A stretch of DNA of 64,000 nucleotides from NCBI GenBank assembly GCA_950295325.1, contig OX485806.1, positions 54,679,169 to 54,743,168 of the forward strand, in the 5' to 3' direction. The DNA comes from Polytrichum commune (lineage: Eukaryota; Streptophyta; Polytrichopsida; Polytrichales; Polytrichaceae). The stretch's first letter is position 1. Every line of letters begins with the position of its first letter. Shown piece by piece: positions 1 through 60,537 of this stretch. The notes under the pieces were generated by a model that did no database searches, was not told the DNA's origin, and saw only the letters and a list, made by a program, of their open reading frames with translations. The position numbers and the translations under genes were made by a program.

Positions 1-1
1 T

Positions 2-1520
2 GTGGATACATTGCCTTATGGATTCGTATTATTGGAGGAGTCATTGGCATTCATGGGGAGTGTTGAAGACCCACGAGAGATGACACCTAAGAATGCCTTG
101 ATACGCCACCCCAAGGACCCTTTACCACTGTGGCGTGATTCCGTCAGCTTATTCAGAAGGTGTGAGGACATTGTCCTCTCTCTCGGTTCTACCACACCAT
201 GTATACCAGATACTCCATCCACGTTGGCACGTCCTATTTTGTGGCGCCCTCCAGACACGGGGATCACTTTGGTGGAGTTGTTTGGGGGCATCGGCACAGG
301 ATTAGCAGCCGTATTGGAGGTTGGCCTCACGGTCAAACAATATGTCTATGTGGACAACTCTTTAGTGTCCACCTGTGTGGCTCGTCACCATCTTCACCAG
401 TTGATGGTATTATACCCCCAGTAGTTACACCCAACTGCCATTCGTGGGTGTCTTTCACGTCTCCCTCATGATGTCACACTCATCAGTGAGGCCGACTTAC
501 GACACTTGGGCTCGGTGGGTATGGTGATTGCGGGATGGCCATGCCAAGGCCATTCACGTGCTGGAGCAGGCCGAGGTTTAGAGGATCCCGGGTCTAGCCT
601 TTTCTGGGACCTCATCCGGCTTATGCAGTGGTGGTTTACCCACCAACCTTCCCTTCCAGGGTATATATTCGAGAATGTACCTTTGTTTGGAGACTTTCGG
701 GACAAGGTGTTGGAAGGCGGTCATTATGTCCGTTAACACCTTGGAGATCCCATTTTCGTGGATGCTGCGAGCATTGGTTCTTATGCCCACCGGCCTCGGT
801 GGATTTGGACAAACCTCATACCGTCATCTACTTTAACTGCAGCATTTTCTGCAGTGCCTCCACCTTTGGATCAGAAGGTGGATGACATCTTGGATCCAAA
901 CCGGACCTCTTTGTCGGTTGTTCCAGATGATTTATCCCCATTGGCATTGGTCAACAAAGTGGGGGCACCACGGAGGGCCTTTCCCACCTTTACGACGTTT
1001 CCACAGTCATTCGCCTTCCGCGATCGGGGCCGGGTATGGTGTGGGATGCTAACACCAAAATCCACACCGAACCGTTGGCTGACAAACGGGAGCAGGCCAT
1101 GGGATTCCGCACTGGCACCACCGCAGCTCCTGGCCTTTCTGAGGGCCAACGACGCTTCGTGTTGGGCCAAAAGCCATGGATCTTCATACTATGGTGTGGA
1201 CTGTTGGTTTATGCCTTGCATTGCAACTGCATCATGCTGACCAGTTGTTCTCTCTGGGGGCAGAGGATTCTAGTCAGAGGGCACAGCAGTCCACATCCAT
1301 GGAGGAAGAAATTGAGGTCATGGTTGGAGAAGCTGAACGAATCTGTCGATTCAAGCAGCAGGTGATAGAGGAGCTCCGAGCTCAACGGATTTATACTGCT
1401 TTGGCTTCTTCACCTCCGGTGGTGGCTTCATCATCACATATTGGTGGTGATGAAAAGGGGATGGACTCTATTGCTAGCACAGAGGTTGGGGGCATGGTTA
1501 ATGCCTCCTCCTCTCATTAG
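2..1520 (+). pseudogene. DNMT3-like cytosine-5 DNA methyltransferase domain of the retrotransposon (decayed)
   Basis: Methyltransferase motifs occur in canonical order. Motif I VELFGGIGTG (SAM binding) is at 272-301. Motif IV GWPCQGHSRAG, with the catalytic Cys of PCQ, is at about 533-565. Motif VI with ENV is at 671-679. A motif VIII-like segment (YAHRPRWIWTNL) follows at about 780-820. A motif X-like segment (GQ.AMDLHTMVWTVG) spans the frame change near 1165-1210. The order I-IV-VI-VIII-X excludes the rearranged DRM type, and the spacing and the SLFWDL and IFENV stretches look most like DNMT3, although DNMT3 usually has PCN rather than PCQ. A Glu-rich, probably coiled-coil tail follows (about 1300-1390). 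Breaks: TAG at 422, TAA at 734, frameshifts near 1035 and 1165. The domain is open at the left edge of the window. Confidence 0.88.
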
Positions 1521-3064
1521 CAGTTAGAGTCTGTGCCAACACCAGGTGGCTCTCTTCTAGTGGAGAGGGAGACCACACAGTTTGATGATTGACCATTGGA
1601 ATTGGGCCCTCATCTCACTGGTGCTGAGGCACAAAAAGTACGAGCATTTATTCGCTCGTACCGTAGGTGTTTTGCTTTTAGTCTTCAAGATCTTGAAGGT
1701 TATAAAGGAAAACCCATCCATATTTAGTTGAAGGACGACCATCCCATTTTTCGGAGACCTTATAGGCTCAGTGTTTCCAAGCGGATTGGCGTTTAGGCGC
1801 GTTGCCGAGAGCTCTTGGCAGCAAGGCTAATCGAACTGTCCAACGGGGAGTATGCTTGTGCTACGGTGATGCCATCGAAGAAGGATATCTTTGGCAATTG
1901 GACGGAGAAGCAAATGTGCGGGGATTACCGTCCAGTTAACCGGAAGACCAAGTCAAATCGGTATCCCATGCCAATCCCGGAGGAGTTGTCCGATGCCCTC
2001 GGATTTGCTCGAGTTTTTAGCACGTTGGACTTGAGATCCGGCTATCACCAACTCCCATTACTTGTGGGAGACCGGGTGAAAACCTCATTTTGGGGAGTTG
2101 ACTAAGATGGGAAGGATCAACTTTACCATTGGAAGTTTCTTCCATTTGGCCTGAAAAATGCGTCTGCCGAGTTTCAGAGAGTGATGGACCAAGTCCTCTC
2201 TGGTTTGCCTTTTGCTCGGTGTTGTATTGATGACGTGATCATTTTCAGCAAAACACCACAATAGCATGTAAGGCATCTTCAAGCCGTTTTTGAGCGATTA
2301 CAGCGGTGGGGATTGCGCTTGCACCATGGCAAGTGCAAGTTTTTCCATGACCGACTAGCATATCTGGATCATATGATTATTCCAGGAGGTCTTGGGGTGC
2401 AGCAAACTAAGGTGGACGCCTTGCAGAAGATTCCGGCACCGGTCGATGTGTCGAGACTTCGTGTTTTCTTGGGCTTGGCGAATTACTATCGGCGATTCGT
2501 CAAGAACTTTAGCTTGATCGCCAAGCCTCTGACCATTCTCAAGAGCAAGGACCAACCTTGGACTTGGGGTCGTGAGCAACAACAAGCATTTGAGACATTG
2601 AAGCAGAAATTGGGTGCGGCTCCGGTGTTTCGATGTCTGGATGTCTCCAAATCCTTCCAGTTGCGTACGGATTGGAGTTCATTGGGTTTAGGAGCAGTTC
2701 TCACTCAGAAGGATGATTTTGGCCGGGAGTATGTTGTTGCTTACTCATCGCGAAGCAACAATACGGCGGAGGCCAATTATTCATCCTATGAGGGGAAGGC
2801 ATTGGCGGTGGTGTGGGCTATTGTCCATTTCCGGCCATATCTTTATGGTCAGCGCTTTACCTTGGTGACTGACCATCAGCCGTTACGATGGCTCATGGAG
2901 TCGGATAAGCTTACTAGCAAGCTCGCCAGATGGGTTTTGTTGCTCCAGGAGTATGACTTTGAGGTGGTGCACCATACTAGCATTACCAACCTGGATGCAG
3001 ATGGACTCTCACGCAATCCAAGTCCTTCGGATGAGGACTTGACCGGGGCCAGGTGGCATGAGAT
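1521..3064 (+). pseudogene. Ty3/gypsy reverse transcriptase and RNase H (decayed)
   Basis: The frame begins with a typical gypsy pre-RT segment and continues through the RT fingers (FSTLDLRSGYHQ near 2020-2055), WKFLPFGLKNA (about 2124-2160) and the catalytic box CIDD at 2223-2234. The first residue of that box is Cys where YxDD is usual. The connection has FLGLANYYRRF (about 2467-2500). RNase H shows TDWSSLGLGAVL (about 2670-2700) and a terminal DADGLSRNP (about 2995-3020). In-frame stops lie at 1590, 1725, 1794, 2103 and 2262, so only pieces remain open, the longest from 2313 to 3287. No protease is seen between the methyltransferase and RT. A frame change near 3065 separates this block from integrase. 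Confidence 0.93.
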
Positions 3065-4667
3065 TGTAATCAAGAGGCGGTTCCAGGTTGGCACGCGGCT
3101 GCTTACCTCACTCAATTTTCTGGTGCACCTGTTGAGGTTCCGATACAGGGCTCGGATGATGAGACTGATCGACCGCAAGCTATTGCGGATATATGGGAGG
3201 ACCTTCCCGTATTGCAAAAGCTTCAGCAGGGGACCTTTCCTTCGTTTACCTCGGCAATGGAAAGGGATAGGATTGGACATCGAATAACAAGGTTCCGTTG
3301 GGAGAACGGTTTGTTATTTCGATTATGATTGGATGGGACAAGGCGTATTGTCCCTAGACCGGATCAGAGGGCCTCCTTGGTGCGACAAGTGCACAAAGAA
3401 CTTGGCCATTTTGGCATACGCAAGACACATTCGATGTTGCGTGGCCAATATTGGTGGACTGGCATGTATCAGCACGTGGCTGCTTATGTCGGGAGGTATG
3501 AAGTTTGTGACCGGGTCAGGTCTAGCTTTAATACCTTGTCACCTTCAGTTACAACCCTTACCTATCATGGGATTGGGCTACCGTTGGTCGCTGGACTTTG
3601 CGGGGCTGTTGGTTGTCACGCCACGTGGAGCAAAGTACGTGTTGGTGATGGTGGAGCATTTTAGCAAGTGGATTGAGCTTGTTGCTTTACCCCAAAACTC
3701 TGCAGAGTTGGCCGCAGCCGCCTTTTTGGATCGTATGTTGGCACGTTTTGGAGCACTGGCTGAGGTATTGACGGACCAAGGGAGGGAGTTCCTCGGTGCT
3801 TTTGAGGAGTTGTGTACTAAAGCGCTCATAGATCACCGCACCACCTCTCGGGATCATCCGGAGGCGGATGACTTGGCTGAACGGGTTGTTCAAACAACCA
3901 AGCGTGGTTTGAGGAAGTATGGATTACTTCGGGGGAGCCACTGGGATTGGGACCTTATGTTGTCTTGGATTGCTATGGGCTATCGATTTAGTAGGCAAGC
4001 CTCATTGGCATCCTACAACCCGTATCAGTTGTTATATGGACGTGAGCCTATACTTCCGAGTTCTATTCGGGAAAAACTAGATCCTATTGTGGATTTGGAT
4101 GACCCTGACATTTGGGCAGAGTGTTTGCAGGAGCGGGCTCAATTCTTCCAGAGGGCCGTACCTATGGTCATGGAGAATTTGTCCATTGCTCAGCACCGTG
4201 ACACATTGCGTTATGCACGCATTCGCAGTGGTGCTTACCGACCTCAGTTGCGGAAATTCCGGCAGGGGGATTATGTTTATCTCCAACGTGAGGCGCCTAC
4301 GACATTGGATGTCAAGGCGGGGCGCACTATCCTTCGGGTGAAGGAGGTGTTGCCGAGTGGTTTGTTGTTGTTGGAAGGCAAGGATGGCAAGGAATGTCGT
4401 GAGCATTCCAAAAATTGTGCCCCATGTCATCTACCTATTGAGGGTGCAATTCATCATGAACTGGCCGTCGTGCCAGAGGGTCTTCCATGCTTTGTATGTG
4501 GAGAGAAGAAAGGAGCGGCTACTATACTTTTATGTGATCAATGTCAACGCGGTTGGTACATGACATGCTTGAGGCCACCCTTGACTTCTCTACCATCTGG
4601 ACAGTGGAGTTGTCCTCGTTGTCGAGGATCTTCGGTACTTGGTGTTTCCACCAATCGTATTCAATGA
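3065..4667 (+). pseudogene. Ty3/gypsy integrase with C-terminal PHD finger (decayed)
   Basis: The N-terminal HHCC zinc-binding part is read in a second frame (about 3380-3530, with HFGIRKTH and a lone VCDRV, one Cys apparently changed to Tyr). A stop lies at 3326 and the frame shifts near 3540. The remainder is an open 444-codon frame from 3333 to 4667, whose first 70 or so codons are out of register. In its numbering the core residues are D88 (RWSLDFAG), D148 (LTDQGRE) and E183 (LAERVVQT), a DD(35)E spacing. A GPY-like region follows (LRKFRQGDYVYL, then LRVKEVLPSGLLLL). The C-terminus is a PHD finger, not a chromodomain. Integrase inserts the cDNA, and its C-terminal domain commonly directs target choice in this superfamily. 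Confidence 0.9.
4488..4622 (+). other. PHD-finger coding segment at the integrase C-terminus
   Basis: Zinc ligands in the 444-codon frame are C386, C389, C401, C404, C412, C427 and C430, with LLCDQCQRGW and SGQWSCPRC as the diagnostic stretches. This matches the C4HC3 plan except that residue 409, where the zinc-binding His belongs, is Tyr (codon TAC at 4557-4559, one C-to-T step from CAC). PHD fingers usually read the histone H3 tail. That this one tethered the integrase to a particular H3 state is inference. Confidence 0.85.
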
Positions 4668-5040
4668 TCATGTGTGGTTTTCATCATCTTATGCCTACCC
4701 AAATGGAAAATGAGGAGTTATGGCTTAGAGACGCAATCAACATGAGGTGGTGGATTTAATTCTTTGGGATCTGATGGCCAAACATCAGAGGCGATTAAGG
4801 ATGGGGCTCACCTTGCACCCAGCCTACAATTCCTTGGAATAACGTTTACCACATTAGTTAGTTGCGGAGCAATCTTTCATTATCCATGCCCTTTAGATTG
4901 GCATTGGTCCTAGCTGCTTGGCGGGACTTCATAGTCAGCTGAGGGAGGGGCATGTCAAGGTGTGTTGTTTATGTGTGACTTTGCTATATTTTAGTGTTGT
5001 TTGTTAATGGTGGTTGGTACTCGAGCTGCAGTGACACACG
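4668..5040 (+). other. 3' noncoding end, polypurine tract and truncated 3' LTR of the DNMT element
   Basis: No ORF of note lies in 4668-4940. GAGGGAGGGG at 4941-4950 is a textbook polypurine tract for plus-strand priming. Two bases later the LTR begins TGTCAAGGTGTG at 4953. LTR-like sequence can be followed only to about 5040, where A/C-rich LINE sequence takes over. The exact junction is uncertain. Confidence 0.7.
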
Positions 5041-6800
5041 ATCGCTATTTACACGACATATCAAACTATGCAACTAATTCATCCAATAAATATCACTTCA
5101 ACCCAAATCCAAGTCAAGCCTATGCCTCATTCACAACAATCATATGCATACATAGCCAAGGTTTCCCACCCACACACTACACCTTCACCCCACAACTCCA
5201 ACAAATCATTCAAGAAGCTCACAACCTACACATACCCACACATAACACCACATTTACCATGAAGCCATAAAAACTTAACATATTGGACAAATGGACGTAC
5301 TCCCCCCAAAACGTCTTACCCACTACCCACACCACCTCTAGTACAAATCCACGATAAACCAATTGACTTTATTCCCCCCAACCACAAAAATACACCTTAT
5401 CCCAAAGCATCTACACGGATGGGACCTTTATCCCACCAGACGATAAAGGAAATGGAAACCTCGCAGGATCAAGATATATAGCCAACTCAACAACATACGA
5501 ATTGCGGAAAAATTCCCAAGGTTTCAAAACATTTTCAGAGCAGAATTATATGCTATTTGGTTAGCACTTGCTAGCACATAAAAAATCAATCACGACATAA
5601 ATATTTTTTATGGATGGCCTCAATAGCATCTACCTCATTAACAACTACGTAAGTCACCCATCTTCCCAATATAATCACCCGGACAAACTGCTAATATCAT
5701 CTATAGTTCAACACATAACATGATTATGACACAAAACAACAATCCAAAAAGTTAGATCTCACACATGAATTAAGGGAAATGACATGGCCGACTCACTAGC
5801 AAATGATGGCACTTCAAAAGGCACCATAACACCCATATTGCGCATACATGTAGCCCACACCATACCATATGGATTAGCTAAACCTTACTCAAACACCAAC
5901 CTAACATGAATAATAAGGAACCTACAAATATTTGTAAAAAACATAACACAATAGGCCACCAAAGAAAACATCATAAATTTCCCACATGCATTAAAAAAAT
6001 GGCTCTCCAATGAGGAGATTCGCCACAAACTCTCTAACCAATTATGGACAAACCCCACAAACTACGGATGCACAAATCACACAACTTTTCAAGTTCCGAT
6101 TTGCCCAATAAATGGGCAATCATAGAAAATATATATGTTGGCTACACACACGAAAACCCCAACTGCACATTATGCCAAATTAACAACATAAATACTTGGC
6201 CGAACTTACTCAATCTATGCAACAATACAATTCTTAAAGGCCTAAGAATTGCAAGACATAATGTCGTTGCCCACCAACTCACCAACCCACTAAAATCAAA
6301 TGTATACACTAAACACCTCACACTCATTAATGTTGGTCACCAACATGGCAACCACCAAGACAACACCATCCCGCCATGGATACTAAGTTGCACATGCAAC
6401 TTTACACAATGTGAATGCCTCACAAAATTAACATTGGGTATTGTTTAATTACCAAGTGTTGCATATGAACAAAATGGTCCACTAATACCTACATTGGACC
6501 TAACCATCCATATCATTGAATTCACGCTTACGCATAATAAATTCCTTGACCAAGGCATACAAACAAAAGAAAACAAATTCAACCCATTAATAGATGCAAT
6601 AAGAGCACAAAGTTGGAATATTAGACCCTTCATAGTTATCATTGCAGGAGTAAGGGGAGCCATTCACACAAAAAACATAGAATTCCTTGAGAATCTACAT
6701 ATCCCCACATCACTAATAAAAAATAATGAAAAACATCCACTGAATAACCATCAAATATCTCACATACCTAGTACTTAATAAGAGAAAACTCGATAATAAA
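5041..6800 (+). mobile_element. LINE (non-LTR retrotransposon) 3' fragment with RNase H and C-terminal zinc-binding domain
   Basis: A/C-rich sequence in which broken frames encode a LINE-type C-terminus. An RNase H begins at YTDGTF (about 5412-5430) and ends with KGNDMADSLANDG (about 5775-5815). A cysteine segment CTLCQINNINTWPNLL (about 6160-6210) is followed by LRIARHN (about 6240-6262). A final conserved block, AGVRGAIH (about 6643-6670), lies in the open frame 6494-6778. Such RNase H plus Cys/His tails are typical of plant LINE-type ORF2 ends. The endonuclease and RT are absent, so the copy is 5'-truncated, the usual LINE insertion outcome. Stops and frameshifts are frequent. Confidence 0.75.
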
Positions 6801-7024
6801 CAAGAACCAATACTCCCCCCACATAGTAAATGAATACCAAAATAATGTAATATATATATATAGACAAACACACACACACACACACACACATACAAGAGCC
6901 CACCCACCGCGAGGTAGGCAGCTAACCCCACCCTGCACCAAGGGGATTCTTGAGTAGGGTAGGACCAATGGGCTCAAATTCACGTCGGATTGCCCAACGT
7001 TGGTTTCGTTTATTTTCTTGTGTT
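6801..7024. repeat. TA and CA microsatellite and LINE-adjacent noncoding DNA
   Basis: Short (TA)n at about 6850-6862 is followed within ten bases by (CA)n to about 6891. The microsatellite may be the simple-repeat tail of the LINE or of its 3' UTR. No gene is seen in the rest. Confidence 0.6.
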
Positions 7025-14439: not shown

Positions 14440-16791
14440 ATAAGGCTAATAAATGTAAATCCAAGTATTCAAACAAAGCCATAAATTGAACTTTAAATCA
14501 TTCACGCCCAACTATTACTAACAAGAGGTCAAGCCCTCTTCAAGGCCAACTAGCCTTGGCTCCTGACCTTACATCCATGCACATACACGTGCTCCTATCT
14601 TACTTCCCACGCACCCACACTTATAACACGTGGAGTGCCAAGGAGCACGAAGGAAAGAGAGGATGAGTGAGGGAAGAATGAGGGATTATATAGTGAGTTT
14701 GAGGGGGTGAGCACCCTCAAGGCTCACGATAAGCCCTCGAGATTTCCTCCTACTTTGTAGGCTCTTATCCTATCTCCTAAGCCTTCCTCCCTCAAATGAT
14801 CAACAAGGATCCTAATTCAAACATTTAACTAACCTTGACTTTCTACCTACCACACTTTACCAAGGTTTGTCCTTCTCCTACTTAAATCCACTCTACAAAA
14901 GCCTAATGATTCAAACTAAGCTTTCTTCAAGCTTCACTCTTTTTATATTTTTATGAATAATCATAAATCACCAAAACACCACTTGTAATGTTTTACAAGT
15001 GTTAACAACCAATGTGGGTATCAATTTTGGGCTCACAGCTACACATGCCCTCAAAAATCTTCTTCTTAAAACCTTGGTCTTGGCCGATGATTCTTCACTA
15101 GTGCTTGTTGCCTCGTTGATGCTATAATGTATCGGCTCCATGGTGCTTCACGTCAACATTGCACTTCAATTCATCCCATTATAAGAACACAAGTGTTAAA
15201 AAACGCTTGTCTCACTTGGCCTTGCTTTCTTTTCCACAAGTCCCTTACAATTCACTCCAAAGTTAACTCCTTAATACAACCCCTAACCCGGCTAGTCTAA
15301 CCAACTAGCCTAACTAGCTAGCCACTAACCCAAGCTTCATTCAAAGTAACCAGCTGGGTCTAACCAGCAGTCACTTCAAACTAACCAGCTGGTCTAACCA
15401 CAGTCACTTAAACTAACCAGCAGTAACTTAGACTAACGAGTTGGATTAACTACAGTCACTTCAAACTAACCAGCTGGTCTAACCACAGTCACTTAAACTA
15501 ACCAGCTGGTCTAACCAACAGTAACTTAGACTAACCAGCTGGGTTTAACCAGCAGTAACTTAAACTAACTAGTTGGGTTAACCACAGTCACTTCAAACTA
15601 ACCAGCTGGTCTAACCACAGTCACTTAAACTAACCAGCTGGTCTAACCAACAGTAACTTAGACTAACCAGCTGGGTTTAACCAGCAGTAACTTAAACTAA
15701 CCAGTTGGGTTAACCACAGTCACTTCAAACTAACCAGCTGGGTTTGACCACAATCACTTAAACTAACCAGCTGGTCTAACCAGCAGTCACTTCAAACTAA
15801 CCAGCTCGGTCTAACCACAGTCACTTAAACCACCAGCTGGGTTTAACCAGCAGTAACTTAGACTAACCAGCTGGGTTTGACCACAGTCACTTAAACTAAC
15901 CAGCTGGTCTAACCAGCAGTCATTTCAAACTAATCAGCTGGGTTTAACCACAGTCACTTCAAATTAACCAGCTGGTCTAACCAACAGTAACTTAGACTAA
16001 CCAGCTGGGTTTAACCTGCCTGCACCGAGTCCAACCTGCCTGCAAACGAGTCTAGCAGCTCCAGGCTTCGGCCAACTACTAACCATAAAATCAAATGCCT
16101 TGATTTAAATACTATAACTCTAAATACTAAAGTCTAAATACTATAAATCTAAACACTATGAGTCTAAATACTATAAATCTAAATGCTAGAAGTTGAATAC
16201 TATGAGCTAAGCACTTGTTTCTAAATGCCTTAAATCAAACACTAACTACATCTAACAATGTAAAGCTAACTTCAAGACTAAATGGTCTTGGCTCTCCACC
16301 TTAAAACCTTGCACACCCACGTTCCCCTTTCTTGCTCCACACACACCCACACTTATAACACATGGGATGCTAAGGGAACAAGAAGGAAAAAAAAAAAAAA
16401 AAAAAAGTGAGGGTTATATAGGGAGAGGAAATGGAAGAGGTGAGCACCCCCAAGGCTCAAGATAAGCCTTTTGATCTTTTCCTACTTTGTAGGCTCTCAT
16501 CCTATCCTCTAAGCCTTCAACTCTTAAACCAACAACATAGATTCCAATTCAAACAATTAACTCAAGGAGCTACCCTTGGTTCACCACACACTACGCTCAC
16601 CTAACTAAGGAACTTTCTTCATGCCGCTAAGCTTCTAATCAACCACTCCACACAAGCCTAAGGCCTAAACATAACTTCACTCAAGCCTCACTATTTTTTA
16701 TATTTTTGTGAATAATCATAAAACATAAAAATATAACTTCTAATGGTTTCAAAGAATTAAGAACACATGTGGGCACCATTTTGGGCTCACA
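14440..16791. repeat. Duplicated LTR 3' segments flanking the minisatellite
   Basis: 14440-15037 and 16260-16791 align along their length. Shared blocks include CACACTTATAACAC, CTACTTTGTAGGCTCT, TTTATATTTTT and the terminal TTTTGGGCTCACA. A run of 20 A residues lies in the second copy at 16387-16406. Confidence 0.75.
15339..16017. repeat. Minisatellite, about 33-bp monomer with 132-bp higher-order period
   Basis: About 20 diverged monomers of the form ACTAACCAGCTGGTCTAACC plus ACAGTCACTTA or AGCAGTAACTTA. A four-monomer block starting GACTAACCAGCTGGG at 15529 recurs at 15661, a step of 132 bp, indicating amplification by blocks of four. The array lies inside the LTR-like unit, between its duplicated flanks. 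Confidence 0.9.
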
Positions 16792-16865: not shown

Positions 16866-17752
16866 ATGAGCTCGATTGATAGTATAGATGAATGTTTTGA
16901 ATTTCTTGATTCATTCCTACACGATCTGGTCAGATATGATGCGGCCGAAGATTGAAAGAGCAAGCCCATTGCCAATCTCGTGATGGCACTGGATGAGGTG
17001 GAGGCATTCTTGAACATGTTCCTTGATTATGTCTTGGCACAACGGTGGCAACTTTACATCAAGCGTTACTCTATCGAGTTAACATTGGCACCCAATTCAT
17101 CAATGCAATCATTGACCTTGAGGGAGTCGAAGACAGGCCAAAGATCATCATCATTAGGTGTCACGACGACAATGTCCATGCTGCAAGCTGTGGATGTGCA
17201 ACATTGATCAGGTGGAATTGGTGGCTCACATCAGACGGTGATTTGGCGGCAACACCATCTTCCATTAGCAAATCGAAAGGAGACTGCTCCTAATCAGAAG
17301 GTATCATCATGAATCTGATCTAGAGCGGACTGTCGGAGCGCGAGATTCGAGCCATTTTGCCTATCGGTGGCTCAAAGATTAGTCGATTACATAAGGTACC
17401 TACTCATAAAATGGACAATCTTCGCACTCGTCGTCCCCCATGCTTTCGTGCTCATGCACTTTCTGTAGCCGACCTTCTAGTGATAAAGGCAGACGTGCTG
17501 ACGTGGGAGATTGAGGACGGTTTCCCCGTGCCTATCGGCGTCCTAAGTAGTATCTTGAAGGCCACATTCTCTTCGCTCTATGAGCGCTACAAGGCGAATG
17601 TTAAAACCACCAATGACAGTGGTCGCGTTTTATCTTATTCACGCTGGATCCAGTACATTCACATGTTATGACTTGGCCTTCACTTGTCTCAAAGCGCCGA
17701 GGACGTATGTGATTGCTGCGTTCTAATCAAGATTCAGCTCGCGTGCGACGAC
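16866..17752 (+). pseudogene. Unrecognised protein relic, N-terminal part (possible DNA-transposon protein)
   Basis: From ATG at 16866 a frame runs with one stop (about 16953), then frameshifts, into stretches with protein-like composition: ALDEVEAFLNMFLDYVLAQ, then a frame with DLEGVEDRPKIIIIRCHDD, then a 104-codon open stretch at 17357-17671. The last part contains SYSRWIQYIHM, and after a stop at 17671 come LHLSQSAEDVCDCC and IQLACDD. A Cys-containing SAEDVCD.C segment of this kind precedes the catalytic domain in some plant DNA transposases, but that is a weak memory-based resemblance. The relic is cut at 17752 by the solo LTR and resumes at 18591. Confidence 0.4.
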
Positions 17753-18590
17753 TATCGCACACCTCTCCATGAGGAATGCCCGAAAGACCATGAACATAAG
17801 GGGGACCCTGGAATGACACCTAAGACTTGTGGCGTCGTTGGTGAGAGGCCCCAAGACATTTGAGTGTGGGTGAGGGCCCCGGAAGTTGGGAACGCCTCCC
17901 ATCCACGGAGACTAGGAGGCACGAGGATAAGGCCATAAGCTGTACGTAGCTTATGGTGTGTAGATTTTAGAATGCTCAAGAACAGCTCAATCAAAGGTGT
18001 GATCTAGGAGTTATGGCAATTTGAGTGGGGCGTTGTCCCGGGACAACGCCCTGGTACAACAATGGTTTGGGAGTGGCTCCCGAGACTGTCAAAGTTTGAA
18101 CATGCATAACTTCCTCAATATTTGCCCAAATGGGACAAGTGAGAAGTCCATCGGAATCTACGTGAAAGAGAGACAAAAGGTTTCTTGACGATGGGGTAGG
18201 GGCCCCGGCAAAAGTACTAGAGGCTTATATGGGTGAGGTAATATGGCCTCATCCACCCGAGGCCGAACGGCAGGGCCTCCATGGGCTTTGGCCCAATGTA
18301 AGGGCATAGTTAGTATGGTTCGGGTTGTTATAGTGTTGCTCTGGCAACGCAATGATCAACATAAGATTTGACTTCCATTCATGGAAGTCCACATCTAAGA
18401 ATTGGTTACTGATTAAGGGGAGAGTCCCGAAAGCAAAGTAGGAGGGTTGGTTCCCCTCTTATGAACTATAACGTCCAGGGTAAGGAGAGCTAATCATTAG
18501 CATGGCGGAATGCAAAGGGTTAGCGCTCGTGATCCTTGGTAAAAATGAAAATGGGCAAGATTGTTAAGGGGTCTAGCAAGGGTTGCGACA
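17753..18590 (+). mobile_element. Solo LTR of the 970-bp TGTCGC family
   Basis: It starts TATCGCACACCTCTCCATGA and ends AGCAAGGGTTGCGACA, the same ends as the copies at 59238, 48130, 36006 and 41405. Flanking pentamers ACGAC and ACAAC match at four of five positions. No internal region is attached. The sequence is 838 bp, shorter than the other copies through internal deletion. Confidence 0.82.
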
Positions 18591-19568
18591 ACAACCTTGT
18601 CGCTGATGAATGTGAGTTCCTACTTAAAGAAAAGGATATGCATCTAAACTAAGTGTAAGCGTCATATCTTAAATAAGTATTTTAAGTCGTTGCCTCTCCG
18701 TTACACGTTAAACTATTTCTTTGAGATTGATCATGGCCACCTTAACATGCGACTGATGACCTCCTCGCCAAGCAATTCTACCATTGATGTCCCACCATTC
18801 CAACCCGATAATATCGACATTACTCAACAATTGATTCTATCCGATCTCTTTGGCGTCGGTGTTATCACAATCAAGCAGTTAGTGTAGTTGCTGACCCGTT
18901 TACCGATTCCACCTCAAATATTGCTTAGTAGCAAAAAAATGATTTCGCTCTAATGTACTATCCAGCAATTCTAGTATCTCTTTAGTCTCAAATTGAAAAC
19001 AAACAGAATGACGAAGTTCAGCCCTCGACCACGTGCCGAAACAAACGTCATCATGTAGCAATTGGTGCAATGGTTGAATATGCACTGGCGGTAGTTAAGG
19101 CAAGGCCATGACGCCCAAAGAAAGCCAAAACACCGACAATGTCCTCGCAAAAATATGTTCTTACTTATTTCTTCATAAATCCATCTAAAAAACAAGCATG
19201 ATAACCTTAAAAATGAATAAATGCGGCACCCAATTTTTTTTTAACCTGAATGTCCCCGTGTAGCTCATGATGTGAGCAACCGATTGCTGCTTTCGTAGAA
19301 AGAATCGGAGTTATATGGACAATGCTATAGAATATATGCGAGAGCAACGAGCCAATGGGACCTTGGGATCCCGCCATGTGGTTCATGTGTAAGATGAAAT
19401 TCATTGTTTAGAATCATTTTGTATGAACTCTTTATGAAATAAAAATGTGGAAGAAAATACTTGAACACAAGTGAAATGTTATGAATTGTATGAATGTCTA
19501 AAGCAAATCGTGGATCCCATACAAGGTGGCCAAGATGGAGAAGTTAGTCACTACACACCATTACAAAT
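18591..19568 (+). pseudogene. Unrecognised protein relic, C-terminal part
   Basis: Immediately after the solo LTR the frame continues with ADECEFLLKEKDMHLN. If the LTR and one target copy are ignored, the frame before 17753 runs straight into it. Later open patches are FEIDHGHLNMRLMTSSPS (about 18720-18775), an IDITQQLILSDLFGVGVIT patch (about 18815-18870) and QPIAAFVERIGVIWTM (about 19280-19325). Many stops intervene. A copy about 97 percent identical over a sampled 165 bp lies inverted at 39530-40438. I do not recognise the family. Confidence 0.4.
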
Positions 19569-35760: not shown

Positions 35761-36005
35761 CAAAAATACTTGCACATTTCACCTAACGTCGTCAATGATA
35801 TGGAATGTTTTGTGAACATTTGTTTTAAGAAATTGATAAATTATAGTGTTTATGACTGGTCATTTGTAAAAATTGATGATGGTAGTGTTTAAGAATAGTC
35901 ATTTGTATACCAATCTTCCAAACTGGCTACTTCACCTTGGCTATTTTTTTTCCTTTCGAGGTGATCTATGTGCAATCCAGACATCTATTCCTACAACAAT
36001 ATTGG
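35761..36005. other. Noncoding DNA before the gypsy 3' LTR
   Basis: No gene or repeat was identified. Confidence 0.4.
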
Positions 36006-36970
36006 TGTTACAACCCTTGCTAGCCCTTTAATTAAACCACTTTCATTTCTAACAAGGGTCACGAGCATTAACCCTTCATATTCCGCCATGCAAATGGTTA
36101 GCTCCCTATATCGTGGACCTCTTAGTTCATAGAAAAAGGACCAACCCTCCTATATTTCGATTTGGGACTCATTGTTTAATTGGTAACCAATGATAAGATG
36201 TGGATTTCCATTCATGGAAATCCAATCTTTAGAGTATCATCAAGTTTCTGGAGCAACACTACAACAACCCCAACCATATTAAGCAACTGTACCCCCCACG
36301 TTGGGCTAATGCTCGTGGAGGCCATGTGGTTCGGCCTCGGGTGGGTTTGGCGGCCACACCGCCTCATCCATATACACTTTTAAGAATTTTTGCAGAGCCC
36401 TTATCCCATTGTCAAGAAACCTTATGTTTTTCTACCAAGAGTTTGGGGCCAAGTAGACATTTTCCCTTAGTTGTTGGAGTTGGAAGCCCCCAATAGTTTC
36501 CGAACACCATAATATCTTTGTATGATCTTTGATACTAAAAAACAACCACTCAATCATCATTTACGCTTCACATAAATATCGATAGACTCCTAACGTGCCT
36601 CATTTGGGCAAGTATTGAAAAAGTGATGCTTGTTTAAACCTTGGCAGTCCTGGGAGCCACTCCCAGGCCACTCAAATTACCACTAGGACAGCACCCCACT
36701 CAAATTGCCATATCTCCTAGCTCACACCTCCATTTGAGGTGTTATTGAGAATTCTAGAATCAATACGCCATAAGCTATGCATAGCTCATGGAATTAGCCT
36801 TGTGAATCAAAGTCTTTGTGGGTGGGGGCGTTCCCAACGCCCGGTGCCATCGCCCACTCTAGGATTATTTGGGCCCTCTCACCAACGGCGACACAAGTCC
36901 GGGGTGTCACTCCAAGGTCCTCCTTGGGCCCATGGTGTTTTGGGCACTCTTCATGGAAAAGTACAAAACA
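36006..36970 (-). mobile_element. 3' LTR of the minus-strand chromodomain gypsy element (970-bp TGTCGC family)
   Basis: Ends are TGTTACAACCCTTGCTAG on the plus strand and GGAAAAGTACAAAACA. On the minus strand the LTR begins TGTTTTGTAC and is preceded by GGTGGGGGTGAC (36971-36982), a polypurine tract. This supports minus orientation and the link with the integrase upstream. 965 bp, no matching target duplication at 36001-36005. Confidence 0.78.
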
Positions 36971-36982
36971 GTCACCCCCACC

Positions 36983-37739
36983 AAACGGAGTTGATGCCCT
37001 CATTGACTATACTCCTAATCGGCAAACCACTTCTCAAGTTGCCATCCTGTATGGTGCGACCGCCACAATGCATCTTCAAATTTGGCATAGTCGCAAAGGT
37101 GTCATTCCTAGGTGGTCCATTAGAGACCTTGGATCTTTCCTCCAAGGACCTAACCCCCAGTAGACCCACCTACTTTGGGATTCACTTGGGTTGCCCCTCC
37201 TTTGGGGCCTCCCATGTTAGGCTCGTATGGCATAACTTGACTCATCTAAGCCAGACCTCAATGCTTCCACTAAGTTGTCTCAATTGCAACTCCAAAATAG
37301 ATTTCCATTAGTAAGCCACGCCTCAATCGCACCGAGGTGATGCCAAATCTCGCCCGACTCCACTTTGGTCTATCGAGATATGGGTTCATGATTCCCATGC
37401 CCTAACTCTCGTTAGCTTGGAAGTAACATATTTATGAGCACACGCCATCACCTTGCCCCCACCCAGACAAACCCATGGCTAAGAGGTTTTATTGTTTTTA
37501 TCCAAGGACCCTCCAAACCATGGCCCCCAATTACTCGGCTTACCCAACCTAGTATGTCATGTCTATTCTCCCTCTTCCAGTAACCAAACACAACTACAAG
37601 ACTAGAACCTAATCTCATACTCTTATGTTTGTACCATTAAAGTTGGATTTTATTGCCTTAAACTAGAAAACCAGTGCATGTTGTGGAGGGCATTGCCTCC
37701 AAGCTAAGTGTCCTACTAGTATTTCTCCCCCATTAAGGG
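36983..37739 (-). other. 3' noncoding region of the chromodomain gypsy element
   Basis: Between the chromodomain and the polypurine tract. Open frames on the plus strand (36739-37311) continue out of the LTR and look fortuitous. 37560-37720 has a similar copy at about 49465-49620, so this 3' region is shared by two elements. Confidence 0.55.
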
Positions 37740-38549
37740 AGATTGATGTCCTTATCAGTGCCTACATTTTTTTTAATTGAAATTTGTAGCCCTAGTTTCT
37801 TCAAAATGCTCCACCATTCCTTGGCGTTCACCATGTTTCTTGTTGCTACCCAAGTGGCTTCTTTCTCATGGTATCCTCGCCATTTCACCAAGTTTTTTTT
37901 TTTCTTTCACTTGGGCAACCCATATTAAGGATGCCCTCTACCTCATATTCCAAATGACCTCCTACAACGTCGAGAGGTGGCCTAATCACTTGCTTGCAAT
38001 TGGTTCACAAGGTGTCTTCCTAAAATGACTTTAGTAGTGAGAGATGGAATGTAGGATGCACTTGATTTAGGACGGTAACTCCAACATATACATGTCCTTG
38101 ATCACTCGGTTCACAATGAAACATGGAGCTCCACTTTTTTGACATGAACTTTGGAGTGAGGCCTTCGGGCAAGGTGAAGTTGTTCAGATTCAACAACACC
38201 TTTTAGCCCACCTCGTACTTCAAATCCTCCGGCATTGACTTGTTTTTTGTAGATCTTTCGGGTTTTCTCCACCAACAATTTGGTCATCTCCATCACTTGT
38301 TCACACTTCTTGATCAAGTCCTCACCATCTTGGTTGAAATCTAGTGTTGAATGTGCCCCCTTGAGAGCTAGGTTAGTAAGTTGGAGCACATCCACTTCAT
38401 AAACTACCACGAAAGACAACCCCTTGGTCGCCAAGTATGTGGCTACATGGCAACTAAACTTTGTTCTACCCACATAGTCCGCCCAATCTCCTTGGTCCGC
38501 CCCCACCAAGTTCTTCAAGTATTGGTTCGAGAGTCCATTCAAGTATTGA
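37740..38549 (-). pseudogene. Gypsy integrase C-terminus with chromodomain (decayed)
   Basis: The minus frame 38111-38572 contains GADQGDWADYVGRTKFSCH and HSTLDFNQDGEDLIKKCEQV, the end of the integrase core and GPY region of a plant chromovirus. Further on, about 37790-37960, another frame holds LVKWRGYHEKEATWV and NMVNAKEWW, a chromodomain. Chromodomains bind methylated histone H3 and steer chromovirus insertion (established). The integrase core upstream is replaced by the inverted repeat insertion. Frameshifts and stops are present. Confidence 0.85.
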
Positions 38550-41404: not shown

Positions 41405-42269
41405 GGCCCGTTAGTTCCCCATACTAATGACCTTTTAGTTCATAGCAGGGGACCAACCCTCCTACACTTGCATTCGGGACTCACCGTTTAATTGGTAACC
41501 AATGATAAAATTTGGACTTCCATTCATGAAATTCCAATCTTTAGTTGATCATCGTGTTGTCAGAGCAACACTACAACAACCCGAACCATACTAGGCAACT
41601 AGGCCCCCCATATTGGGCCAATGCCCGTGGAGGCCGTGTGGTTTGGCCTCGGGTGGGTTTGGCGGCCACACCGCCTCATCCATATAAGCCTCTAGGAGTA
41701 TTGGCAAACCCTGTCAAGAAACCTTATGTTTTTCTAGCAAGAGTCGGGGCCAAGTAGACATTTTCCCTTAGTTGTTGTGGTTGGAAGCCTTCAGCACCTT
41801 CTAAACACCATAATATCCTTGAATGATCTTTGATGCTAACACAAAACTAATCCATCGTCATGTACGCTTCACGTAGATGCCGATAGACTCTTCATATGCC
41901 CCGTTTGGATAAGTATTGAGGAAGTTATGCATGTTCAAACCTTGACAGTCCCTGAAGCCACTCCCAGGCCACTGCTGCATCAAGGCGTTGTCCCGGGACA
42001 GTGCCCCACTCAAATTGCCATATCTTTTAGCTCACACTTGTATTTAAGGTATTCTTGAGAATTCTAGAATCCACACCCAATAAACTAAATATAGCTCATG
42101 GTTTTATCCTCATGGCTCCTAGTCTCCGTAGGTGGGGGGCGTTCCCAACACCGGTGGGAGGTTCCCACTTGGGGCCTCTTACCAATGGCGCCACAAGTCC
42201 TGGGTGTCACTTCGATGTCCCTTTGTGTCCATGGTGTTTTGGGCAATCCTCATAGAGAGGTGCGCAACA
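41405..42269 (-). mobile_element. 5' LTR of the chromodomain gypsy element (970-bp TGTCGC family, end-truncated)
   Basis: The right end GAGAGGTGCGCAACA matches the family 5' end in minus orientation. The opposite end (AGCAAGGGTTGCGACA) is missing, so homology starts near 41405. It lies beside protease remnants, so a deletion has removed the LTR end, primer site and gag. Confidence 0.72.
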
Positions 42270-43499
42270 TTTTTCCAGCCAAAAGTTATTTTTCATTTAT
42301 TTTTAAGTTTACAAATAGATTATTTTAAGATTCACAATTCTTCATGAATGAAAATATCCTAATTATTTATCCTAAACATCTAATTAATCCAACACAACCT
42401 TAATTGTCGTAGACTAGGAATATAAAACCCTTTAAGAATAGGTGTCCTATTAAAAATCAATTCAAAGTGGACTAAAAACTAATATGACATTTTTAAATTG
42501 ATTTTTTTTTTTGAAAAATAAAGAGATGAAATTTTTGTTAGCTACTTCACAAAAAATGTTAATAACTCTTAGTTTTATTTTTAGAATATAACATGACTAG
42601 TCAAAATAAATAAAAAATCTTCAATATCTATCTAGAAATATAAGTCCATAGAAAATAAACACTCTAGCAAGTTGGGGTGAAGTTACAAATTCAAGAGTAC
42701 CAAAACAAATGTTGTCACACGAAATCGCCTATAACTTCTAAACAAAGTTGTCAATATTTATTAGAATAATGATTTTAGAAAGAAGATTTTAATAGTTATA
42801 TATGCATATAGGATATATTAGATTTGGATTTTTAAGTCAAATGTGATAAGCTTTTGAAGTATGCTATCCCTTTTGGCCCAAATGTACTAACTAATGTGAC
42901 ATTCTTAAGAAAGTAATATACTTTACCAACAAAAATTGCTTACCATTATGTATGTTCATCTCTCAAGTATAAAATCTCATTTTCTTGCTCAAAAATTCTA
43001 TAATCAATTTTTATCCCAAATATTTTCTTCCACGTATGCGCCTATTCACACTTCATGTGACTTCTTTTAATCAATTTCCATATAATTTATTTATTTTCAC
43101 TTATGCGGCTATTATTATGTCTTATGAGTTTCTATACATAGTATTTTTCAAGTAATAAGTTATCTCTTAATCACAACCTCTTGACTCAATGGTGTCTATG
43201 CCAACAATTTGTTTGCCTCTACCTTAAATAAATATGGAAAAAATTTAAGCTTGAATGTTTTTTACCTTCAAAATGTTAAAGGTATTTGACCTAGTTCTTG
43301 TAGCTTAACTCATGTGATAAAATGTGTGTGTACTAGAATCCTAACTCTATATGTAGTGAGAAATATAACCTAACATGTGTTTCCATTAGATTACTAAACT
43401 TTTTTTCTTGGAAAAAAATGAAAATGGCCTACTACAATCTTAAATGGGAGCACATATCCTCCATCTCCAAAATGTGGTACAATTTTCTTTAAGATATTC
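42270..43499. other. AT-rich DNA without recognisable genes
   Basis: No frames above about 60 codons and no clear repeat boundaries. Confidence 0.5.
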
Positions 43500-47150: not shown

Positions 47151-48129
47151 TCTCTCGCACTCTCGCTACTTAGGTTAACCTTCTTCGCTTTCTTGCTCTA
47201 ATTGCTTGATTTCAAAAAGGTTTTAACATTCAGATGATCGTTACAGAACATTTAATTTATACCGACGATAGTTTTCACTCTTGATTTCCCAATCTAGTTC
47301 TTTACACATTCACGCTCTCTTGATTCTTGTTCATTTTTTTAGAGCTTATTCTTCTTTTTGATTCAAACTCTCTTTCACTTTGTGGTTGATCAATTTTCTC
47401 TCAATCTCTACCTACTCTTATCAATTCTTAAATACTCACTTTCCCAATATTGACTTGCTCAATTCTTCTCACAACTTCAAGCTTCGTCAATTGTAATCAC
47501 AACAATAGACAATGCTTTTCAATTTCTCATTAAGTCAATCAAAACAACCAAATTTTTTGACCAAGTTTCGGTCCTTCAAAGTAAATATTATTTGAAATAA
47601 TGATATACTAAAACGAGGATTGATAATCTTGCGGTGACAACTCAATTAACATAGAAAGTAGTTTAACTATTGTCTTCACACAATCTTTGTGCTAAGGGAG
47701 ACAAATTGGCTTAGTCTAACTATTCTCTCAAAGTTGCCTACATCAATACTTGCCTACATCCCTCCCGCTAGGCTCAACAAGGATTACAATAGTCTTTGTA
47801 AGCAACTATGGGCACCTACATTCATGCGTATAGTTATAAGCACCTTCCATAGCCTATAATTAATTATTTTCATTTGTCTGGATGTTATTCCATTCTCCTA
47901 CTACATGTCTGCCCATAGTTTAACTATTTGGCCAAACATTTGACACACATCCACTATATACAATGACAATCTAAATCTAAGTAGGTTGGTATTTCAATAG
48001 GATAATGATCTTTAGCACACGAGCAAGATTGTGCAAAAATGGTTGGCATCACAATCATTTCAACTCCTTCAATGGCATGCACAATCTTTGGATTTGAATC
48101 CCATTGAACACTTTGGACACTTTCCAAAC
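47151..48129. other. AT-rich DNA without recognisable genes
   Basis: Only chance frames. It may include leader or LTR remains of the gag relic. Confidence 0.4.
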
Positions 48130-49101
48130 TGTCGCAACCCTTGCTAGCCCCTTTGACAATCTTGCCAATTTTTAATTCTAGCAAAGGTTACGAGTGCTAA
48201 CCATTCGCATTCCGCCATGCTAATGGTTAGCTCCTCCTACCCCGGACCTTATAGTTCATAGGAGGGAACCAACCCTCCTACTTTGCTTTCGGGACTCACC
48301 CCTTAATCGGTAACCCATTCCTAGATGTGGACTTCCGTCCATAGAAGTCCGATCCCATGTTGATCATCGCGTTGCCGGAGCAACACTACAACAACCCGAA
48401 CCATACTAGGCAACTATGGTCTCACATTGGGCCAATGCCCATGGAGGCCGTGCCGTTCGGCCTCGGGTGGGTGAGGCCACACCACCTCACCCATATAAGC
48501 CTCTAGGACTCTACGCGGGGCCCCTACCCCACCGTCAACCAACCTCTTGTCTCTCTACCAAGAGTTGGGGCCAAGTGGACATTTTCCCTTAGCTGCTGGG
48601 CCTCGAAGCCCCCAGCAAGTTCAGACCATCATAACTTCCTTGTATGATGTCTGATGCTAACACAAAACCACTCCATCTTCATTTACGCTTCACGTAGATG
48701 CCAATGGACTCCTCACTTGCCCCATTCAAGCAAGTATTGACAAAGTTATGCCTGCTTCAACCTTGGCAGTCCCGGGAATCAGTCCCAGAAACTGCTGTAC
48801 CAGGGCGCTGTCCCGGTCCAGTGCCCCACTCAAATGGCCATAACTCCTAGCTCACACCTCCGATTGAGGTGTTCTTGAGCGTTCTAGAATCACCACACCA
48901 TGAGCTACGCGTAGCTCTTGGCCTTACCCTCATGCCTCCTAGTCTCCGTGGGTGGGAGGCGTTTTCAACGCCCGGGGCCCTCACCCACACTAGGATCACT
49001 TGGGCCCTCTCACCAACAGCGCCACAAGTCCCGGGTGTCACTCCGGGGTCCCCCTTGTGCCCATGGTGTTTTGGACACTCCTCATGGAGAGGTGCACTAC
49101 A
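48130..49101 (-). mobile_element. Solo LTR of the 970-bp TGTCGC family
   Basis: Plus-strand ends are TGTCGCAACCCTTGCTAG and GGAGAGGTGCACTACA, 972 bp. Flanks CAAAC and CAAAT match at four of five positions. No polypurine tract or pol sequence adjoins it, so it is solo. Confidence 0.85.
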
Positions 49102-49649
49102 CAAATGGCGTTTGAATGAATTTATGAATCCTCCAAGAGATATCCAAAAATTGCAAGAGCATGTGTATGCAATGTATCCCAAGTTTAATGAACATGATTG
49201 CATGGCGCTTTATAAGAGCTCACCATGAAGAATTGATGTTTTGTTAAAAAATAAGGATTACTGGACCAATTACTAAAGATTTTGTACACAATTTGAACAA
49301 AAATGAGTATCCATACATAGTATCTCATTTGGCTTTGGAACATATTATTTTACTATCAATGTAATGTGAAATTTTGCATACATGTGCACAAATTTGTGCA
49401 ATATCATATGCAATTTTCAAATATTTAGAAAACATATCTGTGAAATGTTTGTGGTGTTTGTTGAAGTTCGGCATATTTATTCTCCCTTTTCCACTTACCA
49501 AACACAAGTATAATACTAAGACCTCATATCAGATTATACTCTTAGTATGTTGTGTATCATTTCTCATACATGTTTTGGAGGGCATTCCCTCCAAATTAAG
49601 TGTGCTACTAGCGTTTTCCGGCATTGGCTTATGTTATGTAGCATTTTTG

Positions 49650-56684: not shown

Positions 56685-57000
56685 AACTTATCCGTGGGAT
56701 TTCATTCATTTAGATTTGGATGGATGAATTCTAGAAGTTGGAGAGATGTTCCTAAATAAGGAACCTCCTCCTTAGCTTGGCATTCTTGCCAAGTCAAGCC
56801 TTGTGAGTGAGTGTATAGAGAGGGTTTGTTTGAGGTGAAGATTGCATGTTTATGCAATAAAATCTTAAGTTCTTCTCCTTTTACTTACAATCATGGATTC
56901 TCCCATGATGGAGTGAGAGACAACTTGATTCATTATGTGCATTTGAAGAGAGAATTAGAATTTTTACTAGGGTTTGACTATCTTCCTTCTCGTTTGGCAA

Positions 57001-57982
57001 TAATCATTTTTATTTTATTTTTATTTTTCTCTCTTAAGATATAACATGAAAAAAAAACGCAAGCACAAGGAGTGGCAAAGTTGCAGAGTGTTAGAACAAA
57101 AAACATCGCGGATTTGGAAAGTTATAAGAAGAATTTTTTTTTGTGAATGGCACATTAAAGTGACTTATGATGATGAATCGTTGAATTGTCCACAAAATTT
57201 CTTGTCAATTAGTCGCTTGCAATTTTGGATTCATGCCATTGAGCTCTAAGATAGCACTATTGATTCTAATTCAAATATAAATTCATTAATTAAATAAAAA
57301 AGAGAAGAAGGAGATGACTTTGGGAGCTGAAACCCTTGGTTGGCTCCGGTAATTCTTGGCTGTAACGGCCATCCGGCTTGCAGCAGGCAGACAATCCCTC
57401 CCTCCTCCCTTCTCCCTCTTTCCTTCTCTTCCCCCCCCTGTCTAGGCCCATACCTATATCCGTTGTCTCCCCCCCTTGTCCCCCCTTCCTTCCTTGTCTA
57501 GGCCCTTCCCTCTCCCCTTTCTTTCCCATGGCAAGCGCGGTTGTGTGCAGTCTATTTCAATTCATGCTTAAGTGTTGTTTGAAGAAGAAGATCCAGTGTT
57601 GGAATTACATTATTTTTTGTATTTTGTTTTGGTATCTTCCCCCGTGGCGAGTTATGTTGCTGGAAATTATTGGCATTGTCCTATTTTGTATTATGCTAGC
57701 TTGTGATAAGGTATCGTGGAGTGAGGTCGGAGTGTTTACCGACGGAATTTTTGTGTGTGCACCAAATGGGCAATATTTGTATTCCCTAATGGTGAGGTTG
57801 GGTTAATGACCAATAAACCATAAGGTTGGTGGTGGTTGTAAGTGCAAGTTTTTTTTCATATTTTTTATTTTTATGTTGATATTTGATTAATGTAGATTGT
57901 TGGCTGGAGTTACATGACTTATTATGAATTTTTGGTTACAATTCAAAGCCAATATTATCATTCTCCATTTTCTAGAAGCATT
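57001..57982. other. Pyrimidine-rich tract and unassigned DNA
   Basis: 57396-57530 is strongly C/T-rich on the plus strand. A plus frame 57378-57806 runs through it. Its second half (from ATG 57528) is hydrophobic (YIIFCILFWYLPPW, IIGIVLFCIMLA), but nothing supports it as a gene. Confidence 0.35.
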
Positions 57983-58320
57983 GGAAGGTTGATTGTGGTG
58001 TTTTTGGGCACCCCCTTCCGAGGGAGCCTAAAAATACCGCACATGCCCTTCGGTGAGGGTGGCCTGCCTTGGCAGGTGCCCAAGCCGAACCCGGGTGTTT
58101 TGATATTTAATGGGTGTTTTGGGTTTACGGAGGAATTTGATAATCGCGTCGTATCCTTCCGATAGGTTGTGCCTAGATTTTAAGTGCCTAAGGTTATTAT
58201 CAAGTTTCCTAACTTAATGCCTAATCTATCATAGTCTACACGCAGACGCACCAGCCTTGGGATCAAGGCAACCTAACCCTAATGAATGAAATAATCTTAA
58301 GTTTTACCTTGGGCCACCTC
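57983..58320 (-). repeat. Inverted copy of the 24.42-24.75 kb repeat
   Basis: Shares CGAGGGAGCCTAAAAA, CTACACGCAGA and GGGATCAAGGCAACCTAA with the other copy in reverse orientation. Confidence 0.65.
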
Positions 58321-60211: not shown

Positions 60212-60537
60212 CCTTCATTCAAACACTCATAACTTTCACTTTTTAAATCCGATTGTAACAAACTTATACTTTCTAGAAAACTAACAACACGAATTATAAT
60301 GCGTTAGAATATCAAAAAAATTGAATCATTTCTCTTTTAGTTATGCGCTTGCAAAGTCAGCGCTTGTAATTTAAGAGGCAGGTGAGACACCTTCATTCAA
60401 ACACTCATAACTTTTGCTTCCTAATTTTGATTCTAACAAAAAATTTGGAAAGCTAATATAAAGGGCTACATTCACTCAAAATGTGAAGGCTAACTTGTAG
60501 TATTTGTGTCCACTATACTTGCTTGAAAGTGACACAA
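60212..60537. repeat. 178-bp tandem repeat interrupted by the solo LTR
   Basis: CCTTCATTCAAACACTCATA starts at 60212 and again at 60390. TTTAAGAGGCAG precedes both the solo LTR (about 59215) and the second unit (about 60370). The LTR therefore landed inside a short tandem array. Confidence 0.75.

Follow-up and report, generated by a model that had tools for sequence, protein, structure and literature searches.

A Ty3/gypsy retrotransposon family of Polytrichum commune that carries a DNMT3-class methyltransferase, a PHD-finger integrase and split terminal repeats

The first 5,058 bases of a 64,000-nucleotide stretch of the moss Polytrichum commune (contig OX485806.1, positions 54,679,169 to 54,743,168 of the forward strand; the whole stretch is called the window) are the 3' part of a decayed Ty3/gypsy retrotransposon. 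On its plus strand, Pfam finds a C5 DNA methyltransferase (DNMT), a reverse transcriptase (RT), an RNase H, an integrase and a PHD finger, in this order, between positions 1 and 4667. The window copy is a dead member of an abundant, recently active family. In intact members, the first open reading frame (ORF1) encodes gag with its CCHC motif, an aspartic protease and the DNMT, and ORF2 encodes RT, RNase H, a DDE integrase and the PHD finger. The first-pass annotation of this DNA proposed that a DNMT and a PHD finger are coupled in one Ty3/gypsy element, with the PHD finger ending the integrase in the position that a chromodomain has in chromoviruses. Both proposals are borne out: the pairing is present in all 20 copies sampled from the genome and recurs in several organisms. 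The account favored here has two ORFs linked by readthrough, a packaged DNMT, self-primed reverse transcription, integration from a circle and tethering by the PHD finger; taken as a whole, it is considered probable. With a writer of cytosine methylation and a reader of chromatin in one element, the idea that a transposon marks itself can be put directly to the test. The ends of the element, moreover, contradict the standard scheme for long terminal repeats (LTRs) and, if the route proposed below is true, circular DNA is a productive integration substrate.

The family was traced in the 407.8-Mb assembly with an integrase-PHD query. Out of 2,277 candidates, 92 were scored and all 92 had E ≤ 0.001, giving at least 92 relatives. 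An open frame of 1,047 or 1,048 residues is present in 25 of the 92 rows, four of which have a stop inside the match. Twenty copies were sampled in pieces; since 15 were picked for their 1,047/1,048-residue frames and five for an older look, the sample is not random, and the count of DNMT-bearing copies rests on 20 of the 92. DNMT sequence lies upstream of RT-RNase H-integrase-PHD in every one of the 20. The reference for this comparison is L001 (CADCWO010000201.1), a complete relative of the window type on a 9,285-base contig that is filed under a cyanobacterial metagenome-assembled genome (MAG) and presumably represents eukaryotic contamination of a bacterial MAG. In 17 copies, at least 388 of the 462 residues of the L001 DNMT part are aligned in one piece at the expected place; in the remaining three, the DNMT is displaced or split by an insertion, and the pieces fetched for copy idx 15 are without the first 217 of 531 residues. 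The DNMT frame is stop-free in the fetched piece of 12 copies, and the longest frame of the 3' piece reaches at least 1,035 residues in 15. The family looks recently active because several copies combine identical paired repeats with open frames. Between two copies, L010/L030 and L014/L034, the integrase is near-identical (synonymous divergence, dS, 0.01) whereas the DNMT has diverged (dS 0.18), a contrast that points to mosaic copies arising through recombination.

Comparison of the paired repeats shows that the element ends in split repeats, in the order A1-internal-B1-A2-B2. The A repeat measures 333-334 nt in lineage a or 432-434 nt in lineage b, and the B repeat 105-107 nt. Ordinary LTRs were rejected as a description, as the 5' end consists of A1 and the 3' end of B1-A2-B2, with no two identical complete LTRs. 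In 12 of the 13 copies compared, A1 differs less from the A2 within the same copy than from an A2 elsewhere, with idx 7 disturbed by a deletion. The clearest pair is that of idx 12, with no within-copy difference in A (at least five to other copies) and none in B (at least seven to others). The genomic ends read TGTCACG...ACGACA and are flanked by a perfect 4-bp target duplication in all 14 copies that have both ends in the fetched pieces. Directly before B1 lies a G-rich tract, and a like tract is present in 18 of the 20 sampled 3' pieces. Immediately after A, at offset 0, begins a stretch of which 13-16 nt are complementary to part of A itself, both in L001 and in 13 of 14 copies; no shuffled control exceeds 11, and both sides of this self-complementary site change together between the lineages. 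The A2|B2 joint is exact within each lineage in all 13 copies compared, and B1 and A2 meet in the palindrome GACAGCTGTC in all of these 13 as well, and in 16 of all 20 sampled 3' pieces. With a purine tract before B and a putative priming site after A, ordinary reverse-transcription logic therefore marks B+A as the LTR that RT would make, though the integrated ends are A and B.

In the proposed scheme, the RNA loops back at its 5' end to prime reverse transcription immediately behind A, and the purine tract that precedes B would serve as the start of the second strand; the resulting cDNA would have B+A as its LTR. Integrated copies run from A to B rather than from B to A, which would be most simply explained if the two ends of the cDNA were first joined into a circle. 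Within that circle, integrase would cut the internal palindrome as GACA|GC|TGTC with removal of GC; the product, flanked by a duplication of 4 bp, would be A-internal-B-A-B or, as seen in the window, A-internal-B. Cutting of palindromic 2-LTR junctions has been reported for the HIV-1 and foamy-virus integrases (PMC1905944, PMC1180852). Integration from circular DNA is implied by the arrangement of the ends but not proven by it. Two origins are conceivable for the A-internal-B form of the window copy, a one-LTR circle and B1-B2 recombination.

The strongest competing explanation borrows from DIRS/Ngaro elements. These are tyrosine-recombinase retrotransposons with split direct repeats. If the ends of the present element originated in a similar way, the RNA would span A1 to B2, the internal B1-A2 would template the completion and joining of the ends, and a DDE integrase would have replaced the tyrosine recombinase. 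This fits the order A1-internal-B1-A2-B2, which is that of split direct repeats; it fits the lack of A-B-A-internal-B copies among the 5' pieces, as expected for a directional cut or join; and the repeats of a Klebsormidium element have been called DIRS-like (PMC5890265). However, the purine tract sits exactly before B1 and the putative priming site exactly after A, which would make B+A the LTR and leave B2 uncopied. Such an origin is thus unlikely, if still a serious competitor to self-priming followed by circle integration.

The two ORFs of the element are separated by a UAG codon in a conserved context, and relatives with open frames retain this codon. TAG followed by CAR YYA stands between them in 18 of the 20 sampled copies, in the window (TAG CAG TTA at 1518..1526, plus strand, the end of ORF1) and in L001. 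Most of the window lineage has TAG CAA TTA, the window and one other copy have TAG CAG TTA, and the second lineage and L001 have TAG CAA TCA. In L001, ORF1 (positions 3-3491, running off the contig edge) and ORF2 (positions 3492-6635) share one frame, with a single stop between them. The six nucleotides 3' of the UAG are reported to be essential for readthrough in tobacco mosaic virus (PMC2754532). A fraction of ribosomes may likewise pass the UAG by readthrough, which would place the DNMT at the level of Gag and the integrase-PHD part at a lower level; the DNMT would be packaged and could methylate the cDNA of the element or its target. A single polyprotein, as the first-pass annotation had supposed, is found in some distant relatives (P0203 and P0204, with both domains in one frame); in the present family the DNMT lies on the gag-protease side of the UAG and the PHD finger on the pol side. 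ORF2 might instead be translated after a restart or from a spliced RNA, without readthrough, and in most copies seen it is indeed a separate frame. Nevertheless, only the stop separates the two ORFs of L001, and CAR YYA is kept behind the stop across lineages with near-saturated synonymous change. Restart or splicing is accordingly given a low probability, clearly below that of a DIRS/Ngaro-like origin of the ends.

The DNMT of the element is assigned to the DNMT3 class on the basis of its profile and predicted fold, being closest to DNMT3 among the solved cytosine methyltransferases. The core motifs GIGTG, PCQ, ENV, HRPR and LGQ are kept in relatives of the window type. The ratio of nonsynonymous to synonymous change (dN/dS) in the DNMT is 0.26 between two lineage a copies (pairwise, at an unsaturated dS of 0.18). 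Between lineages a and b it is 0.16 for the DNMT; the corresponding values for the PHD finger (0.10) and the integrase (0.02) are rough, at a dS of at least 1.6. Several pairs with L001 are saturated, and very close copies are uninformative (DNMT 0.46 at dS 0.016; one replacement in the PHD finger at dS 0). For the linker that follows the DNMT, dN/dS was high in two comparisons (0.77 and 0.88) and low in two others (0.28 and 0.09), which makes it only a partial neutral control. On these sequence comparisons, the DNMT and the PHD finger both look constrained. The DNMT could conceivably have ceased to be an enzyme and persist within Gag in a structural role or to bind nucleic acid. Motif changes that would fit this occur in the four proteins that carry the DNMT before the integrase, in which CKD, CED or CQD replace CQG and motif I is altered. 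In relatives of the window type, however, the core motifs and the constraint on the DNMT speak against a loss of enzyme function, and a retrotransposon DNMT has been described that can methylate CG de novo (PMC5890265). A purely structural DNMT is therefore improbable, slightly more so than restart or splicing.

The integrase-PHD search returned 194 proteins at E ≤ 0.001, with Klebsormidium nitens, Calypogeia fissa, Marchantia polymorpha, Sphagnum fallax and Tetrabaena socialis among the matches listed (the best 120 of the 194). A regular expression caught the PHD finger in 57 of these 120, the rest being cut short, diverged or missed by the pattern. By sequence, the closest solved PHD fingers include those of CHD4, PHF12, ATXR5, Lid, WSTF, PHF21A and UHRF1. 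Readers of H3K4me3 typically have a Trp two residues before the zinc-binding His, a position occupied by Gly or Ala in 57 of 57 relatives. Acidic residues shortly before the core are typical of H3K4me0 readers; they are present in 29 of the 57 relatives and absent in the window copy. The His that serves as zinc ligand, found in 56 of the 57 relatives scored, is a Tyr in the window copy. The PHD finger is proposed to tether the integrase to histone H3 tails, as the chromodomain does in chromoviruses; it may also select a chromatin state, as the first-pass annotation suggested. The integrase-PHD proteins P0065, P0070, P0075 and P0105 carry C-terminal tails of about 320-360 residues behind the PHD finger, in which Pfam finds nothing at E 0.001.

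Several points weigh against the account as a whole. With regard to the ends, A1 of idx 2 differs from its own A2 at two sites and from the A2 of another copy at one. The B-repeat comparisons are mostly ties (8 of 13 copies), with three copies closer within themselves, one, again idx 2, showing the reverse, and idx 19 not properly cut out. In idx 7 the self-complementary match is 9 nt, no better than its shuffles, and one more copy is left out of this scoring. Random cutting of a 2-LTR circle is expected to give A-B-A-internal-B copies as well, and none is present among the 5' pieces. As to coding, two of the 20 copies, both older, are without the UAG context at the expected place, the PHD finger and the DNMT sit in different ORFs, and the PHD finger of the window lineage lacks a clear ligand signature.

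The association of a DNMT with this type of element extends beyond Polytrichum. DNMT searches gave 51 and 35 proteins, with Marchantia, Calypogeia and Closterium as named hosts and no Klebsormidium DNMT in either set, and layouts were mapped for 40 DNMT relatives. Gag-CCHC-protease-DNMT proteins with alike C-termini are found in P0173-P0178 and in P0183-P0186 and P0188, and P0187 is of the same kind without the gag part. DNMT and RT are contiguous without a stop in P0196 and P0199, the former carrying DNMT-RT-RNase H-integrase in a single open frame, and the Marchantia gene model P0195 joins both as well. The order is different in P0203 and P0204 (RT-RNase H-DNMT-integrase-PHD) and in P0202 and P0205 (DNMT-integrase-PHD). 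P0202-P0205 stand apart from the rest in an unrooted DNMT tree, with a support of 100/99 and a long-branch warning; built without host DNMT3, the tree shows groups, not origin. P0153, which joins a DNMT part to an integrase part, looks like a deletion product. A scan of genome contigs found one true relative, L001, and the viral contigs searched held none. P0131 is also filed under a bacterium, by its look another case of binning contamination.

DNMT and PHD finger thus co-occur in two domain orders, in hosts that include liverworts and metagenomes, and because the pair recurs in both orders, it is suggested to be functional and not a one-off capture. A wider reading would recognize a green-lineage group of DDE-integrase gypsy elements that reverse-transcribe by self-priming, integrate as circles through a palindromic junction, and have kept a DNMT writer and a PHD reader through two domain orders. 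This would merge the DIRS repeat plan with integration of the retroviral type, the palindromic circle junction lying inside the repeat; it is offered tentatively, as something less than an even prospect. That a DNMT pseudogene or a separate insertion merely adjoins a gypsy-PHD element by chance, as the breakage of the window copy into several frames might suggest, can be dismissed, given that none of the 20 sampled copies lacks either the DNMT upstream of RT-integrase-PHD or the PHD finger and that gag-protease-DNMT and DNMT-RT-RNase H-integrase each occupy single open frames in unrelated contigs (P0173-P0178, P0196). The first-pass annotation had named copies without one of the two domains as grounds for refutation, and the sample contains none.

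The window copy is 9,711 bp long. Its 5' end lies 4,653 bases before the window and its 3' end at window position 5058, close to the end first annotated, 5040. It has the form A-internal-B, with a single A at the 5' end, found upstream in L070, and a single B at the 3' end (4953..5058, ending in ...TTTACACGACA at 5058), A2 and B2 being absent. The flanks TATA and TATC agree in three of four bases, which fits an aged 4-bp target duplication. The following features are all on the plus strand. The broken DNMT3-class methyltransferase extends over 2..1403 (tblastn pieces against L001; PF00145 at 425-733, E 1.7e-9). It runs in frame 2 to about 1030, in frame 1 at about 1027-1203 and in frame 3 at about 1170-1403, and contains an in-frame TAG at 422..424 and an in-frame TAA at 734..736, after which the frame shifts. 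The RT (1797..2366) is broken between 2105 and 2265, and its two PF00078 pieces (E 0.0083 and 0.0015) are both below the Pfam cut-off; in the intact relative L001, RVT_1 is found at E 4.3e-31. RNase H follows at 2565..2954 (PF17919, E 1.1e-31; PF17917, E 2.1e-36). The integrase is divided between two frames, with the H2C2 zinc-binding domain in frame 2 (3359..3523; PF17921, E 2.1e-16) and the rve core in frame 3 (3579..3860; PF00665, E 2.3e-14). The PHD finger at its C-terminus (4488..4622; PF00628, E 9.7e-9) is the second-best family on its frame. The purine-rich tract GAGGGAGGGGCA at 4941..4952 directly precedes B, and the self-complementary site is mutated in this copy. CG-specific decay was considered as a trace of methylation in the window copy and rejected, an excess at CG being absent: C-to-T changes number 11/148 at CG, 11/127 at CHG and 30/419 at CHH, and G-to-A changes 11/148, 29/154 and 35/615, respectively, with G-to-A at CHG as the sole high value.

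In the rest of the window, a second, older remnant of the family's 5' end (the A repeat, its leader and then the start of gag; 72-83% alike) occupies 56656-57173, 57538-57989 and 61302-61788 and is interrupted by about 3.3 kb of other sequence. The sequence that follows the element (5059-7000) is strongly skewed between the strands, with values of about -0.4 and -0.3 for GC and about +0.27 for AT. At 15340-16016 lies a tandem array whose units measure about 33 and about 132 bases. Repeats common to the surroundings of other element copies, presumably other transposons, are found at 17752-18592, 36004-38541, 41410-42271, 48126-49112 and 59235-60213. No tRNA and no Rfam match was found in the window at default thresholds.

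Among known systems, membership in Ty3/gypsy is indicated by the RT-RNase H-integrase order, the H2C2 and rve domains, and the 4-bp duplications. The element shares with DIRS/Ngaro the split direct repeats A1-internal-B1-A2-B2 but differs in its DDE integrase and in duplicating 4 bp of the target; in the two L001 ORFs, Pfam finds rve and no tyrosine recombinase family. Elements of the Tf1 type prime themselves through a primer binding site complementary to the 5' end of the RNA. Similarly, the stretch behind the 5' repeat is complementary here to a stretch inside the repeat, a candidate RNA 5' end; unlike in Tf1-type elements, the integrated ends differ from those that reverse transcription should make. 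REM1 and TOC1 of Chlamydomonas are further odd retroelements that could be relevant. The SymbioLINE and SymbioDIRS elements of dinoflagellates are also retroelements with a captured DNMT, but belong to the LINE and DIRS classes (PMC5890265).

Like the chromoviruses (Tcn1-type, in mosses; PMC3350952), the element belongs to the Ty3/gypsy retrotransposons of non-seed plants, and its integrase is followed by a module for chromatin binding. It differs in having a PHD finger in place of the chromodomain, Pfam finding no chromodomain in L001 ORF2 or in the window, whereas chromoviruses have ordinary LTRs and, in the portion of PMC3350952 available, no described DNMT. That portion describes the chromodomain elements of mosses and does not mention a PHD finger. 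In the open-licence literature, the titles and opening lines of the abstracts listed gave no report of a gypsy integrase with a PHD finger, of bryophyte DNMT-gypsy elements or of gypsy elements with split repeats.

The closest counterpart is the gypsy element of K. nitens, KnitGypsy-Dnmt3, which carries a DNMT3 under purifying selection and DIRS-like repeats (de Mendoza et al. 2018, PMC5890265); PMC12344493, citing that work, repeats that some DNMT3s lie in retrotransposons. Both elements have the gypsy domain set, a DNMT3-class enzyme in their own ORF, DIRS-like repeats and a constrained DNMT. The DNMT is described as lying in the Pol ORF in K. nitens, whereas here it is found at the end of the gag-protease ORF, before the UAG. 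The main text of PMC5890265 mentions neither PHD nor chromodomain, though its figures and supplements may differ. Relative to the element as described in that text, the PHD finger, the several bryophyte and metagenomic hosts and the second domain order are additional, as are the putative self-complementary priming site, the measured 4-bp target duplications and the palindromic joint. A DNMT3-gypsy element with DIRS-like repeats was thus already known from Klebsormidium, and, set against that description, the element of Polytrichum is a real variant of this kind.

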